Origin: Candidatus Aminicenantota bacterium
GTDB lineage: Bacteria > Acidobacteriota > Aminicenantia > JAMOAD01
Assembly (NCBI GenBank): GCA_027061995.1
Contig: JAMOUT010000069.1
Location: forward strand, 1 to 8,477
Length of the DNA stretch: 8,477 nt
Reading direction: 5' to 3'
Every line of letters starts with the position of its first letter. The stretch's first letter is position 1. The notes under the pieces were generated by a model. That model searched no databases, was not told the DNA's origin, and worked only from the letters and a program-made list of their open reading frames with translations. This document shows positions 1 to 6,424 of this stretch, in pieces. The translations under genes were made by a program, and so were the position numbers.

Positions 1-191
1 TGATTACCTCCGATATTATTCCCGAAGGTTTTTATCTCTTTTATCTCAGGTTTTACTATTTTCCTATTAATGTTTCCTTTCACAATGGTGTTTTGGTTTT
101 TTCTTACAATCGCTTCTTTTTTACAATCAATCATAATTAACAAAGAAAATGCCAAAATAAAAACAAAAATATAATTATTTTTTCTTTTCAT
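1..191 (-). CDS. N-terminus of an exported, possibly lipid-anchored protein (partial)
   Basis: An open frame runs from the ATG at 191-189 to the left edge without a stop, giving the first 63 residues of an incomplete protein. The start is preceded by AGGGGTG with a 7-base spacer, a good ribosome binding site. The protein begins MKRKNNYIFVFILAF: a basic n-region, then a hydrophobic stretch (about residues 8-21) ending in ...IMIDC at Cys23. This looks like a signal peptide or lipoprotein leader, but Asp just before the Cys is unusual for a lipobox, so a simple membrane anchor is equally possible. The mature part is rich in Lys, Asn and Ile, and no family is recognisable from 40 residues. It follows the propeller-bearing permease by about 94 bases with no visible terminator, so it may be the last gene of the GntR/ABC operon and an envelope partner of that transporter. 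That link is inference. Confidence 0.6.
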   Translation of the reverse strand, partial: MKRKNNYIFVFILAFSLLIMIDCKKEAIVRKNQNTIVKGNINRKIVKPEIKEIKTFGNNIGGN

Positions 192-285: not shown

Positions 286-1905
286 CTAAAATTTTATAAA
301 CTCATATTTTTTCATCCATTTAATCACCATCATCCCTTTTCGGGACAGATAAATATATTTGTCTTTTTTAAATGATGATTTATAACCCTTTTTCGATATT
401 AGTCTCCCCTTTTTATAGACCATGACTGTTATATAGGGAGTATTATTATTCCAAATAGCAATAATGGTTTTATCCACGAAACTTCCTGTTACAACAGAAT
501 TATCCTTTTTAAATTTTAAATTAATTTTGTGTAAATCAAGCGTTTCAAAATCAAAGATATATACTCCACTCGTCAGTTTAACAACCATAAATCTTTTTTC
601 ATAAGGGCGCTCAAACCATTTAAGGAAAATATGACCTCCCTCATTCTTCGCAAAAACAGGTTCCGAATTTCCTCTCTCATAAACTTTAAACGAACTTTTA
701 TCACACAAAACCATTCTGTTTTTATAAAATTTAATATCCCCCGTGAAAAAATGCTCTGTTTTACCGTTTTCATATTTATAAGTTTTATTATTGTATTTTG
801 TATAGATAAAACAGAGAGGAGATTCCGATATAAGCTTAAATAAAAACACCCCGCCGCTAATTGCTCCTTTCGGAAAATCAATTTTTCGAATTTTATCTTT
901 ATTTATTATAAGTATGGATTTATAATCTCCCCCTTCTCGAACAAGAAAGGTTATTCCATTATCATTTATATGCGGATTTGAAAAAAAAGAATATTTTTCA
1001 GCTTCATGGATGTTTTTTATCTCCTTTGTTTTGAGATTTATAGAAATAAGTTTACTTTTATCTTTTTCCTCGGTTTCTCCGTATAATAAATCATCTTTAT
1101 ATACTATTGGAAAAACTTTATAATCGATTGATAATATTGTTTTGCCTGTTTCAGCATCAACAACTTTCAGGCTTTTTACATCACTTATAATAATTTTCCC
1201 GTTCTTCGTCAGCATATAATAGTTATAATTATTCATGCCCGATAATTTAATGAAAACAGTTAAACCAACAAGAACAATGATAAATGTGATTATCGAGCGG
1301 GTTAGAAATTTACGATTGAATAATTTAATAGGCAAGATATCATCTTTGATAAATGAGTAGATAAAAACAATCGGAAAACTTAAAGCGACTATTATTATTA
1401 ATATGTAAATATCACTGTACCATAATAATTTCCAAACCTTCATATCAATAAGAATCATGAACATCCCGAAAAAAGTTATTGAAGCGAGAACCATGGCAAT
1501 ATTATTAAAGAGGAGCGAAAAGGAAAAGGATAAGATAAAAAGGAGAAGGTAGAGAATGATGAAAATATTTTTATCAAAGAAAAAATCCGAAGCAAAATAT
1601 TCTCTCAGAGGAAGATAGATAACTAAAACAAGAAGAACAGATACTATTCTCGGAATCAATTTATTTATGAGAATAGAATTTTTCCCAATAGGTAAAGAAA
1701 ACAGGTATTCAAAGCTATTTTCCTTTTTCTCTCTGCTGAAAATCGACCAACCGGAAAAAACGGGATACAGCAATAAAATAAGTTCAAGAAGGGGGATAAT
1801 ATAAAATTCAACCCCTTTTATTAAGGCGAGAAAAGAAAGTCCTATGATTAAAAGTAGAATAATCAATAATTCTCCGATTGTGTCTTTAATCTCTTTTTTT
1901 AACAT
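286..1905 (-). CDS. ABC-2-type permease with C-terminal propeller-like domain
   Basis: The 539-residue membrane protein has hydrophobic segments near residues 11-30, 34-50, 82-100, 114-133, 135-153, 162-186 and 203-220. The stretch REKKENSFEYLFSLPIG (58-74), followed by a hydrophobic helix, is typical of ABC-2 exporter permeases. Residues 221-539 are soluble and rich in beta strands, with repeated strand-turn patterns such as KVVDAETGKTILSID, LISINLKTKEI and YIFDFETLDLHKINL. These recall PQQ- or WD40-like propeller blades, although I cannot count blades reliably. With an N-in start and seven membrane spans the C-domain should lie outside the membrane; this topology is inferred. A plain ABC-2 permease of the YtrC/YtrD kind has about 250-330 residues, so the C-domain is an addition. 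The ATG lies inside the end of the ATPase gene (20-base overlap) behind GGGGG, so the two are translationally coupled. Substrate unknown. Confidence 0.8.
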   Translation of the reverse strand: MLKKEIKDTIGELLIILLLIIGLSFLALIKGVEFYIIPLLELILLLYPVFSGWSIFSREKKENSFEYLFSLPIGKNSILINKLIPRIVSVLLVLVIYLPLREYFASDFFFDKNIFIILYLLLFILSFSFSLLFNNIAMVLASITFFGMFMILIDMKVWKLLWYSDIYILIIIVALSFPIVFIYSFIKDDILPIKLFNRKFLTRSIITFIIVLVGLTVFIKLSGMNNYNYYMLTKNGKIIISDVKSLKVVDAETGKTILSIDYKVFPIVYKDDLLYGETEEKDKSKLISINLKTKEIKNIHEAEKYSFFSNPHINDNGITFLVREGGDYKSILIINKDKIRKIDFPKGAISGGVFLFKLISESPLCFIYTKYNNKTYKYENGKTEHFFTGDIKFYKNRMVLCDKSSFKVYERGNSEPVFAKNEGGHIFLKWFERPYEKRFMVVKLTSGVYIFDFETLDLHKINLKFKKDNSVVTGSFVDKTIIAIWNNNTPYITVMVYKKGRLISKKGYKSSFKKDKYIYLSRKGMMVIKWMKKYEFIKF

Positions 1906-2713
1906 AATTTCCCCCTATAATTGACTTTATTATTTCAGAAAGTTTTACGGATTCCATTTTTAAATCCTCTGATTTTTTTCTTTCATAGGGATAAAGATAG
2001 CCTTCTTCAAAATCCCCCCAATCCTTTTTATAGATTACAGGTAAATCTTCGGGAATTTTCTTGGCTGTAACTTTAAAAAACGCCCTCTTCAGAGTTTCCA
2101 CACTCTCTTTCAAAATAATCTTTCCTTTATCAAGGATAATTAGTTTCACTGGTAAACCCTCTATATCTGAAAAAGTCTGTGAACTTATTATAACCGAAAG
2201 TTTTTTCTCTTCCATCCTTTCTATCAAAATATTTAGAAAGGTCTCCCTTAGGTAAGGGTCAAGAAGATGAAGTATATCATCTATAAAAAAATATGAAGGA
2301 TTATGGGAAAGAACAAGGATAAGATAAAACAGAACTTTTTCCCCTTTGGAAAGTTCCTCTATTCTTCTGTTGGTTTCCAATTTATAATCGGGGAAAGTAA
2401 TTAAAGAAAAATAGGGATAAATACTTTTATGAAAATCTATCGATTCTCCTATTTTCATCTTATCGTAAAAACTCAAAGAGGAGGGGAGATAACCGAAGCT
2501 GTATCTGTCTTTAGCTTCGATCTTTTTATTATTCAAAAGAATTTGCCCTTCGTAATTATTAAAGATTCCATTCAGACATCTTAAAAGAGTCGTTTTACCG
2601 GCTCCGTTTTTCCCCGCTATTAAAACACTCTCCCCTTCATCTATTGTAAAATTTACATCCTCTAAAACTTTTCTTCCGCCAAAACCAAAGGAAAGATTTT
2701 TAATTTCAAGCAT
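1886..2713 (-). CDS. ABC transporter ATP-binding protein with degenerate catalytic motifs
   Basis: This 275-residue nucleotide-binding subunit presumably drives or gates the adjacent permease. The Walker A motif GKNGAGKTT (34-42) is intact, and the signature is LSKGE (121-125) instead of LSGGQ. Several other positions depart from the family. The Q-loop glutamine is Ser78 in GYLPSS. Walker B is YFFID (141-145), followed by Asp146 where a catalytic Glu is usual. The switch histidine is Gln179 in IISSQT. The C-terminal 75 or so residues are an extension with no motif I recognise. The order GntR regulator, ATPase, permease matches YtrA/YtrB-type export units of Gram-positive and other bacteria. 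The gene overlaps the regulator by 8 bases and the permease by 20, and its ATG follows AGGGGG with a short spacer. ATP binding is likely; efficient hydrolysis is doubtful. Confidence 0.88.
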   Translation of the reverse strand: MLEIKNLSFGFGGRKVLEDVNFTIDEGESVLIAGKNGAGKTTLLRCLNGIFNNYEGQILLNNKKIEAKDRYSFGYLPSSLSFYDKMKIGESIDFHKSIYPYFSLITFPDYKLETNRRIEELSKGEKVLFYLILVLSHNPSYFFIDDILHLLDPYLRETFLNILIERMEEKKLSVIISSQTFSDIEGLPVKLIILDKGKIILKESVETLKRAFFKVTAKKIPEDLPVIYKKDWGDFEEGYLYPYERKKSEDLKMESVKLSEIIKSIIGGNYVKKRD

Positions 2714-3092
2714 CTTTTCCCCCTATAAATTTTATTAAAAATTCTCTTAACTCTTTTGAAGAAAACCCCAGTTCCACCGCTTTTTCAACAAATTTTTCAA
2801 ATTCCTCTTTAAGTATTTTTTCTTTCTCCCCATCCCCCCCTTTTCTCTTTTTAATCCAAAACCCCTTACCCGGCCTTGAATCCACAACCCCCTCAAAAAC
2901 AAGTTCCCTATACGCTTTTGCCACAGTATTAGGATTTATCTTTAGAAAAGAAGCTAATTTTCTAACAGAGGGAAGCTCCTCGTTCTCTTTTAAATCACCG
3001 GACAAAACAAGATATTTTATATGCTTTTTTATCTGATCATATATCGGAACAGCCGAAGAAAAATCAATTTTAAAATCATTGTATATTTTCAT
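2706..3092 (-). CDS. GntR-family transcriptional regulator, YtrA subfamily
   Basis: A 128-residue DNA-binding repressor, the usual length for the short YtrA branch of the GntR family. The family opening SSAVPIYDQIKKHI (12-25) is followed by the winged helix: ELPSVRKLASFLKINPNTV (39-57) contains the helix-turn-helix, and RPGKGFWI (73-80) is the wing. The C-terminal part (about 87-124) is helical and should provide the dimer interface; there is no ligand-binding domain of the FadR or UTRA type. It is the first gene of a compact unit with the ABC ATPase and permease, overlapping the ATPase by 8 bases. No Shine-Dalgarno sequence precedes the ATG. The promoter lies so close that the mRNA would be almost leaderless, and heptamer repeats cover the promoter, which suggests autorepression. 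YtrA-type regulators commonly respond to envelope stress or cell-wall antibiotics; the inducer here is unknown. Confidence 0.92.
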   Translation of the reverse strand: MKIYNDFKIDFSSAVPIYDQIKKHIKYLVLSGDLKENEELPSVRKLASFLKINPNTVAKAYRELVFEGVVDSRPGKGFWIKKRKGGDGEKEKILKEEFEKFVEKAVELGFSSKELREFLIKFIGGKDA

Positions 3093-3120
3093 TGTATTAA
3101 TAATATAATACAGTAATACA
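3093..3120 (-). promoter_or_regulatory. Probable operator: three TGTATTA heptamers
   Basis: Read on the minus strand, TGTATTA occurs at 3120-3114 and 3112-3106 as direct repeats one turnless 8-base step apart, and its inverse TAATACA lies at 3099-3093. The second and third copies form a perfect 7-base inverted repeat with a 6-base spacer (3093-3112) that covers the -10 box and reaches the start codon. This is where a GntR-type dimer would block its own promoter. The site is low in complexity, so part of the match could be chance. Confidence 0.6.
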
Positions 3121-3182: not shown

Positions 3183-4082
3183 TTATCTGAATTGGAAAGG
3201 TTCTACTACGGAACCCTCTTTAATCTTAGTTCCCGAACGAATATAATTGAAAGGATAAATTATAGAGTCATCGCCTATTTCAACATCAAACTCCATAAAA
3301 GTATTTTCAGGGGATACTATTGTAACCCCCTTTTCAATAACTCTATCCATATTCTTCTTATTAAAATATGCAATAGCTTCAATAAGTTCAACTCTATTGT
3401 TTAACCCCTTTGTAATCTCTTGCTCCTTGACCTTAAATAAACCAACCTTTCCCCCTGCTTTCGAGAGAAAATTTATTGCATCCGGCAGAAAATACTCCCC
3501 TTTGGGATTATCATTTTTTATTTCATATAATTTTGGTAAAATTTTTTGCCAATTAAAGAGGAAAATAGATGAGCTAACCTCCTTTATCTCTAATTCCTCT
3601 TTTGTCGCAACAATCTCTTCCACTAATTTTATAAATTTTCCGTTTTCATCACGGACAATCCTTCCGTAGGGGGGGGGATTATCAAAATCAGTTGTAACTA
3701 TTGATACATCATACCCGTTTTTTAAATGAAAATCATAAAACTCTTTTATTGTCTCAAAACCAAGATAAGGGTTATCCCCGACCGTTATCAAAAGCTCGCC
3801 CGAAAACCCTTCCAAAGCGGGAATCGCCGATTTAACCGCATCCGCGGTGCCGAGAGGAGTTTTTTGCAAAATATACTCAACACTGTTTTTTAAAACTGTT
3901 TTTAATATTTTTTCATTATGAGGGCCTGTTATAAGGATAATTTTTTCAACACCCGCTTTTTGCATGGCATCAACAGGAAATTTTATCACCTCTTTACCGA
4001 GTATCTTATGTAAAAGTTTATTTGTTTTTGATTTCATACGGGTTCCTTTCCCGCCCGCCATGATTAAACCGAATAAACTCAT
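3183..4082 (-). CDS. Short GlmU-like sugar-phosphate nucleotidyltransferase (no acetyltransferase domain)
   Basis: This protein resembles the uridylyltransferase half of GlmU, which makes UDP-GlcNAc from GlcNAc-1-phosphate and UTP for cell-wall synthesis. Visible motifs are MAGGKGTRM (8-16), a nearby lysine (K22), QKTPLGTADA (73-82), GDNPYL with metal-binding Asp103, PYGRIVR (138-144), GEYFLPDAI (195-203) and GLNNR (226-230). From about residue 252 the left-handed beta-helix begins (GVTIVSPENTF, then DVEIGDDSIIYP), but the protein ends at ...VVEPFQFR after 299 residues. Full GlmU is about 450. No continuation exists in any frame downstream, so acetyltransferase activity must come from elsewhere. 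The usual EINTG sugar-contact motif reads EVSSS (168-172), losing the Asn, so substrate choice may differ. It follows the cheX-like gene by 4 bases; the SD is GGGTGA. A nine-C run lies in the coding strand at 3669-3677. Confidence 0.85.
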   Translation of the reverse strand: MSLFGLIMAGGKGTRMKSKTNKLLHKILGKEVIKFPVDAMQKAGVEKIILITGPHNEKILKTVLKNSVEYILQKTPLGTADAVKSAIPALEGFSGELLITVGDNPYLGFETIKEFYDFHLKNGYDVSIVTTDFDNPPPYGRIVRDENGKFIKLVEEIVATKEELEIKEVSSSIFLFNWQKILPKLYEIKNDNPKGEYFLPDAINFLSKAGGKVGLFKVKEQEITKGLNNRVELIEAIAYFNKKNMDRVIEKGVTIVSPENTFMEFDVEIGDDSIIYPFNYIRSGTKIKEGSVVEPFQFR

Positions 4083-4593: not shown

Positions 4594-5640
4594 TCACCCC
4601 TTAAGTTTTTTAACGGAATTTGCCTTAAAAGAGAGATATACTTCGGAATCACCGGCCAAAGATAGTTTTTCAAAACTTTCTTTCGTGATCAATACTTTAA
4701 AAACAACCTTCCGAACATCAACCACTACCTCTCTGTTGTAAAGATCGGGGGTAAAATCAATAATTTTTCCTTTAAAACAATTCAAAGCCGATGAAAAAAT
4801 TTTTTCTTTTGAAAGTATAATTTCATCCCCCTTTATCATAATGGAAGTTTTTCCTTCACCCTCAAGGGTTGTTTTTATAGTAAGGTCTGAATTATCAATT
4901 CTGAATTCCCTGTCTTTCAAATAACCGAAAATTATATTTTTATGCCTGAAAAAAGAGGCAATCCAAACATCATCCGGATTCTTAATAAAATCACTGATGT
5001 TTCCCTGCTTAATAAGCTTCCCCTCTTTCATAACTATTATTCTATCCGAGATCGCCATAGCTTCTTCAAAATTATGGGTAACATAAATTACGGGTGTTCC
5101 GTATTTTCTACTTATATCTTTTATAAATTTAAGATATTTTTCCCTAATTTGATAATCTATGGAATTCATAGGCTCGTCCATTAAAATAATGTAAGGATTA
5201 AAAACAAAAGCTCTTGCAAGTGCCACTTTCTGTTTTTCCCCCCCCGACAAATTCAACGGATACCTGTTTAACAATTCCTTAATTCCGAAATCTTCCAAAA
5301 CCGATAAAACTATTTCTTTTCTCTTCTTTTTACCGATTTTTTTGAATTTCAGGGGAAATTCAATGTTCTCCATAACATTAAGATGGGAAAACAACCCTAT
5401 TGTCTGAGGGATATAACCGAAATTTCTCATCTCGGGGGGGTATCCTGTTATATCTTTTCTATCAATGAAAAGATTGCCAGAGTCAGGTTTAATAATTCCC
5501 GTAATTATTTTTATTATCGTTGATTTACCGGAACCGGAAGGACCTATAAGGGATAAAATCTCCCCTTGTTTTATTTTAAAAGAGATATCCTTTAAAGAAA
5601 AGTCCGTATATTTTTTTTCAATATTCTTCAGTTCTAACAC
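4594..5640 (-). CDS. wtpC: Tungstate/molybdate-type ABC importer ATP-binding protein
   Basis: A full-length 348-residue import ATPase with all motifs intact: Walker A GPSGSGKST (33-41), Q-loop Gln79 in GYIPQ, signature LSGGEKQ (131-137), Walker B IILMDEP (151-157) and switch His189 in VTHN. After the nucleotide-binding domain (to about 235) come roughly 110 residues of TOBE/Mop-like strands, the usual regulatory or oxyanion-sensing tail of ModC/WtpC proteins. Assignment to tungstate/molybdate rests mostly on the partner permease; sulfate or another oxyanion cannot be excluded from this protein alone. The start is GTG (5640-5638), one base after the permease stop, with AGAAGG close upstream, so translation is probably coupled to the permease. 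The signature motif is encoded across an eight-G run (5238-5245). Confidence 0.85.
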   Translation of the reverse strand: MLELKNIEKKYTDFSLKDISFKIKQGEILSLIGPSGSGKSTIIKIITGIIKPDSGNLFIDRKDITGYPPEMRNFGYIPQTIGLFSHLNVMENIEFPLKFKKIGKKKRKEIVLSVLEDFGIKELLNRYPLNLSGGEKQKVALARAFVFNPYIILMDEPMNSIDYQIREKYLKFIKDISRKYGTPVIYVTHNFEEAMAISDRIIVMKEGKLIKQGNISDFIKNPDDVWIASFFRHKNIIFGYLKDREFRIDNSDLTIKTTLEGEGKTSIMIKGDEIILSKEKIFSSALNCFKGKIIDFTPDLYNREVVVDVRKVVFKVLITKESFEKLSLAGDSEVYLSFKANSVKKLKG

Positions 5641-5641
5641 A

Positions 5642-6424
5642 TCACCTTCTCTTTTTGTTTGATATCAGTCTTAACAATAAAAAAACCAATATTATTATAA
5701 ATAACAGAAAAGCCACGGCGGGCGAGGAAGACCTTAATCCCGCTGTTTCAAATCTTTCATATATCAAAGTTGAAATTATTTTAGGATTATAGGCTATTAT
5801 TATAATGGCTCCGAACTCAGAAATCCCTCTTGCCCACATCATAATCGAACCTGTTAGAATATTACTCTTAACAGAAGGGATTAAAACCCTTACAAAAGTA
5901 TTAAAGCTGTTAGCTCCGAGACTTCTTGCCACATTTTCAATCTCAGGGTCAAGATTCTTAAACCCCTCTTTAACCTGATTAATCAGAAAAGGAACACTAA
6001 CATAAACCATTGCAACTATTATTCCCGCCGATTCATTGATAAATTTTATCCCGATTGAATTAAATATTTTCCCGAGAAAAAAATGTCTCCCGAGAATCGT
6101 AAGTAGTGCAATACCGGCGGCAGTATGAGGTATAACCACAGGAATATCTATTATAGCTTCAATAATGGTTTTAAAACGAAAATCATATTTGGCGAGGATG
6201 TATCCTGTCGGAATTCCGAAAATCAAACCGAGAAAAGTGGCAAACAAAGAGGTATATATTGTCAGATATACGGAATTCAAAAGTTCTTTATCTTTAAAAC
6301 CATCCGTAATAAAACCGATTCCACCCGCACCTATTATTTTAACAATCGGCAAGAATATAAAAAGAAAAAGAAGTAAACTTGCGGTCAGAACAAGAAAGTA
6401 AAATAAAAAATTTCTTGTTTTCAA
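5642..6424 (-). CDS. wtpB: Tungstate/molybdate-type ABC importer permease
   Basis: A 260-residue inner-membrane permease of the ModB/WtpB/CysTW type, with hydrophobic segments near residues 8-30, 51-73, 88-113, 131-150, 185-210 and 236-254. The EAA loop that docks on the ATPase is NVARSLGANSFNTFVRVLIP (164-183). WARGISEFGAIIIIAYNPK (197-215) followed by LIYERFETAGL (220-230) is the pattern I associate with archaeal-type WtpB more than with ModB, whose equivalent reads GEFGATI. The start appears to be TTG at 6424-6422: an in-frame stop lies four codons upstream and the next Met is residue 139. Only a weak AGAG precedes it. It begins 17 bases after frr and is probably cotranscribed with it. No periplasmic binding-protein gene (WtpA/ModA/TupA) is present in the window. 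Confidence 0.83.
   Translation of the reverse strand: MKTRNFLFYFLVLTASLLLFLFIFLPIVKIIGAGGIGFITDGFKDKELLNSVYLTIYTSLFATFLGLIFGIPTGYILAKYDFRFKTIIEAIIDIPVVIPHTAAGIALLTILGRHFFLGKIFNSIGIKFINESAGIIVAMVYVSVPFLINQVKEGFKNLDPEIENVARSLGANSFNTFVRVLIPSVKSNILTGSIMMWARGISEFGAIIIIAYNPKIISTLIYERFETAGLRSSSPAVAFLLFIIILVFLLLRLISNKKRR

Follow-up and report, generated by a model that had tools for sequence, protein, structure and literature searches.

The stretch of DNA analyzed here (the window) is one whole contig of 8477 bp from the class Aminicenantia of the Acidobacteriota. On its minus strand, three overlapping genes run in the order GntR regulator, ATPase, and permease, and the permease, which is the 3' member, continues into a large C-terminal domain. 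The features discussed below are as follows.

3..191, minus strand: N-terminal 63 residues of a longer lipoprotein whose gene is cut by the contig end, recognized from a paralog
286..1905, minus strand: ABC-2 permease/β-propeller fusion, 539 aa (P0001), from the ORF call, homologs, and model
289..1236, minus strand: periplasmic β-propeller, residues 224-539, with seven or eight blades, from the predicted model and structural matches
1240..1905, minus strand: membrane domain, residues 1-222, seven spans with the N terminus inside, from hydropathy, models, and charge
1240..1329, minus strand: seventh span, residues 193-222, which lies beyond the six-span ABC-2 unit and exports the C-domain, from models and structural alignment
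1690..1743, minus strand: cytoplasmic coupling-helix motif FxxExxExxxEYLxSLP, residues 55-72, near-invariant in the family, from the alignment and model
1886..2713, minus strand: ABC ATPase, 275 aa (P0002), overlapping the permease start by 20 bp
2177..2179, minus strand: codon of Gln179, at the H-loop His position in the alignment with NosF
2276..2278, minus strand: codon of Asp146, at the position of the Walker B catalytic Glu in the alignment with NosF
2706..3092, minus strand: YtrA-type GntR regulator, 128 aa (P0003), from PF00392 and operon position
3093..3120, no strand assigned: predicted operator, inverted repeat TGTATTA-N14-TAATACA, abutting the GntR start codon
3125..3130, minus strand: TTGACA, a -35-like hexamer

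The regulator has a wHTH domain (PF00392) at residues 18-79 of its 128 residues followed by a short C-terminal part, which places it in the YtrA subfamily, and the ATPase matches PF00005 (E=1.8e-19), as expected of the cognate ATPase of an ABC-2 exporter. Repeats like the predicted operator precede the GntR gene in most relatives, and TTGACA occupies the same site in most of them. Such a repeat and box at the GntR start fit a YtrA-type operon that would be autoregulated, as has been described for other YtrA-type operons (PMC6746942); YtrA regulators have also been linked to envelope stress (PMC6746942, PMC12772383). Elsewhere, the window encodes a GlmU-like nucleotidyltransferase of 299 aa with one hexapeptide repeat and without most of the acetyltransferase half (3183-4082), an ABC importer ATPase with a TOBE domain together with a BPD-type permease (4594-6424; the window contains no binding-protein gene), and an IS3-like two-ORF transposase (HTH_Tnp_1, rve) at the contig end (7131-8383).

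An initial, sequence-only reading of this DNA had suggested that the C-domain might dock a small exported protein encoded next to the permease. We could not sustain this proposal: the ORF at 3-191 is the cut N terminus of a lipoprotein for which the five closest genomes contain a single clear relative, a lipoprotein of 454 aa from the window's own genome, and in the nearest relative of the fusion (L051) an unrelated gene of another family occupies this position. Because the contig end truncates the lipoprotein gene and relatives do not conserve it, we rejected it as a member of the system; the two nearest relatives carry different downstream genes, so no fixed partner exists. The 454-aa paralog lies in a RiPP-like cluster of the window genome (L065, G000:C94, 2142-5000, minus strand), beside a radical-SAM/SPASM maturase that resembles the CcpM and GG_samocin models below their cut-offs; the cluster also includes a SPASM-domain protein and a short ORF for a Cys-containing peptide, MLKKIKTNNSIIRTIVLESKNQCEKCCKIGRPYTETYREYHKPKV, identified by eye.

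Hydropathy reveals seven hydrophobic spans in residues 1-222 of the permease. AlphaFold2 models were built with ten family members. The full-chain model has seven long helices and a short coupling helix (mean pLDDT 82.7; pTM 0.65, at which the placement of the propeller relative to the membrane is not fixed by the model), and residues 1-224 modeled alone again yielded seven helices (pLDDT 85.6, pTM 0.84). The latter model aligns with NosY, ABCA, LptF/LptG, CcmB, ABCG, and PmtD over 158-194 residues (rmsd 4.2-5.5) with Z of 8.8-10.5, which is moderate for helical proteins, and the match list consists almost wholly of ABC exporters of one class. Foldseek also placed NosY first, yet with no match at E below 0.001. 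The solved six-span units reach only to about residue 190-200 of our model, so the helix at 193-222 is an extra span, and the seventh span that had been only apparent in the sequence is genuine. The model contains the six-span unit, N-terminal helix, and coupling helix after span 2 that define ABC-2 (type V) permeases. Among curated sequence models, PF12679 gave 17.1 bits, below its cut-off of 27.2, so ABC-2 membership rests on fold and operon. Judging from the model, residues 1 to ~190 would constitute a six-span exporter unit of the NosY/LptFG/PmtD type.

The side of the membrane on which the C-domain lies follows from the orientation of this domain. In all 41 aligned family sequences, Lys and Arg are in excess in the loops that an inside N terminus makes cytoplasmic; their per-residue frequencies are 0.27, 0.17, 0.12, and 0.26 in the four inside segments vs 0.04-0.09 in the outside ones. 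An inside N terminus and seven spans put the C terminus outside, as the sequence-only reading had proposed, and since the genome encodes an LpxD-like protein, indicating a diderm, "outside" here means the periplasm and not the cell exterior. The close spacing of spans 4 and 5 in hydropathy could be taken to indicate an even number of spans, hence a cytoplasmic C-domain, for which we otherwise found no support. Both models, full chain and domain alone, have seven helices; the charge bias is uniformly that of an inside N terminus; a related stand-alone protein, composed of span 7 and a propeller and with a positive N terminus, brings its own membrane span (L068); and the split modules described below are signal-anchored. 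We therefore regard an even span count as very improbable and are highly confident of the architecture and of a periplasmic propeller.

In the predicted model, residues 224-539 form ~31 strands (pLDDT 83) arranged in a closed ring of four-stranded blades compatible with a count of seven or eight. The top PDB matches found by Foldseek, among them EMC1, BamB, Cdc4/Fbw7, and Atg18, are all β-propellers (Z 13.6-16.6 over 272-300 residues), in agreement with the propeller-like fold first suspected. Searches with 10 members against Pfam gave no convincing match for the C-domain, NCBIfam gave no name for it, and neither the permease nor the C-domain had a convincing match among PDB sequences; by these Pfam and PDB sequence searches, no convincing match ties the C-domain to WD40, PQQ, NHL, or DUF5128. 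Outside the nearest pair, identity to the window sequence is 14-21% for the propeller vs 26-34% for the membrane domain; the propeller thus diverges faster and has almost no invariant residues. Such weak conservation fits docking to varying partners, and also a merely structural role. With almost no invariant residues and no family match, we found no support for binding of the cell wall or capture of a ligand by the propeller, which had also been suggested.

We searched for the fusion in Acidobacteriota genomes and in one narrow pattern scan. Its profile matched 48 of the 142 class genomes at E<=1e-10, and 31 distinct near-full-length fusions of the same architecture were aligned within Aminicenantia, so the ORF at 286-1905 is not a product of chance or assembly; its closest homolog shares 55% identity over the full length. 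Extending the search to the wider phylum sample added matches to the membrane domain only. Two stand-alone C-domain matches truncated by contig ends (L085, L087) were left uncounted. Among the 34 fusion ORFs listed, 31 have the ATPase gene directly upstream and overlapping; of the remaining three, one is a second permease in tandem and two are truncated by the ends of their loci. As called, the overlaps measure 14-107 bp, with over-extended starts accounting for the larger values. A YtrA-type GntR gene usually heads these operons across the class, so the pairing of fusion and regulator does recur outside the window. The clade of the window permease is supported at 100/97. One locus (L042/L069, G068:C159) carries two tandem permease-propeller genes behind one ATPase gene, suggesting that heterodimeric versions exist. 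PADLOC returned only generic ATPase matches for the system, and the open-access literature that we searched yielded no earlier description of a permease-propeller fusion.

The seven-span core without the C-domain is common among relatives, and related operons contain exoplasmic proteins both fused and split. At three loci, short permeases are followed on the same strand by secreted six-bladed DUF5128 propellers that carry signal-like spans at their N termini, with gaps of 1 bp in the window's own genome (L066), 146 bp (L088), and 454 bp (L082). With 5-31 DUF5128 genes in each of these three genomes, we estimate that chance adjacency in ~18 operons would yield well under one case; sequence comparison of the DUF5128 proteins with the fused propeller established no kinship. 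At another locus (L090, G131:C60, 314-2386), the seven-span core is fused to an apparently helical domain of ~440 aa that belongs to no known family, and a relative of this domain (28% identity, E=1e-49) is a separate signal-anchored protein in a permease operon (L092:4648-6030). At L070, L071, L078, and L079, two short ABC-2 permease genes flank a gene for an ankyrin-type lipoprotein; Pfam confirmed Ank for L071, and the other three were judged from their N termini. Most 540-aa fusions of family f5 are followed by a secreted protein with ankyrin repeats and a metallo-β-lactamase fold; we considered it as the partner and rejected it, as it is missing beside both the window fusion and the closest relative of that fusion. 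Taken together, the fused and split propeller, ankyrin, and helical versions suggest a permease core that operates with exchangeable exoplasmic modules.

The partner ATPase lacks the Walker B Glu and H-loop His of canonical ABC ATPases: Asp146 and Gln179, 33 residues apart, stand opposite the Glu and His of NosF. These atypical residues had escaped the sequence-only reading. The Asp/Gln pair is found in 13/13 ATPases of the window clade; the clade of ~590-660-aa fusions has Glu/His in 18 of 19 and Glu/Gln in one; and all 16 ATPases beside short or helical-module permeases combine Glu with Leu or Val at the H-loop (at L066, L067, L073, L074, L076, and others). A fully supported branch separates each of the three groups from the rest. 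Sites with a Glu-to-Asp change hydrolyze ATP slowly while retaining some activity and often accompany H-loop changes, and in asymmetric exporters the weak site is the one that bears such a pair of changes (PMC7756269). By analogy, the Asp/Gln pair should slow hydrolysis, although it could yet permit normal turnover. With a single ATPase gene in the operon, a homodimer would hold two identical Asp/Gln sites; alternatively, the ATPase may pair with another ATPase of the window genome.

NosDFY resembles this system in that NosY is the best structural match of the membrane domain and NosF ranks among the closest sequence matches to the ATPase. NosD is a separate, repeat-built β-helix periplasmic protein that works with the NosY permease. 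In place of NosD and a six-span NosY, the window encodes seven spans with a propeller fused via the seventh; its ATPase differs from NosF at both catalytic positions; and it has no nos context. The gene order GntR(YtrA)-ATPase-permease is shared with staphylococcal PmtABCD, PmtD is a fold match (6xjh, Z 8.9), and for ATPase and regulator the most informative NCBIfam matches are PmtA and PmtR, at 94.3 of 350 bits and 59.7 of 200 bits, far short of the curated equivalog cut-offs. Unlike PmtABCD, the window operon has one ATPase gene and one permease gene, and PmtD is not known to carry a propeller. TAP belongs to the type I exporters, whose fold is different. A Walker B Glu-to-Asp change coupled to an H-loop change also occurs in TAP1/TAP2 and other asymmetric exporters (PMC7756269), but there only one of two sites is degenerate, whereas one ATPase gene here implies two identical degenerate sites. 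In the Bacillus ytrGABCDEF operon, a YtrA-type repressor likewise heads the ABC genes; YtrF was an extracytoplasmic substrate-binding lipoprotein in an earlier model, and YtrB2CD and YtrE2F2 have since been proposed to form two transporters (PMC12772383), with no permease-propeller fusion described.

From the computed gene order, predicted fold, seven spans, orientation, conservation of the fusion, and residue substitutions, we infer a slow, repressor-controlled, probably homodimeric ABC-2 machine whose exit-side propellers dock an envelope partner or substrate, a reading that we favor on balance. GntR(YtrA) would repress the operon, and the complex would probably comprise two ATPases and two permease-propeller subunits, each with a six-span core, its N terminus inside, and a seventh span carrying the propeller into the periplasm. 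Located at the exit side, the two propellers could then offer a platform or adaptor on which an envelope protein or exported substrate docks. When ATP closes the ATPase pair, the coupling helices, and hence the propellers, would move, and hydrolysis slowed by Asp/Gln would suit a low-flux or switch-like machine better than a fast drug pump.

It is also possible, though less probable, that the complex does not pump and is an ATP-gated mechanical switch or envelope sensor, in which ATP holds the ATPases closed at two degenerate sites while the propellers monitor an envelope partner or act upon it. The invariance of Asp/Gln in the window clade, the single ATPase gene per operon, the equation of such paired changes with a weak site in asymmetric exporters (PMC7756269), and the link of YtrA regulators to envelope stress (PMC6746942, PMC12772383) all point in this direction; however, Asp keeps some hydrolysis, making slow transport possible (PMC7756269), and the sister clade of fused permeases retains Glu/His, so a propeller needs no degenerate ATPase. 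A more elaborate form, which we consider doubtful, is a symmetric complex with both sites degenerate that would serve as an ATP-binding switch sending force to two propellers, within a family that swaps propeller, ankyrin, and helical modules on one seven-span core. The resemblance of the core to PmtD and NosY, the weak matches of regulator and ATPase to PmtR and PmtA, and the poor conservation of propeller residues would all suit a peptide or small-molecule exporter whose propeller passively shields the exit or serves as a structural cap, but retention of the fusion in 31 homologs and the swapping of exoplasmic modules exceed what a dispensable cap would lead one to expect, and we think this unlikely.

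An ABC-2 permease with a fused periplasmic propeller represents a new layout of a known machine type. ABC-2 transporters thereby gain a domain architecture in which a seventh span attaches different periplasmic modules, and comparing fused with split versions across related genomes reveals which exoplasmic proteins go with which permease. The clade-specific pairs Asp/Gln, Glu/His, and Glu/Leu provide a natural series on the catalytic Glu and the H-loop His in symmetric ABC machines.
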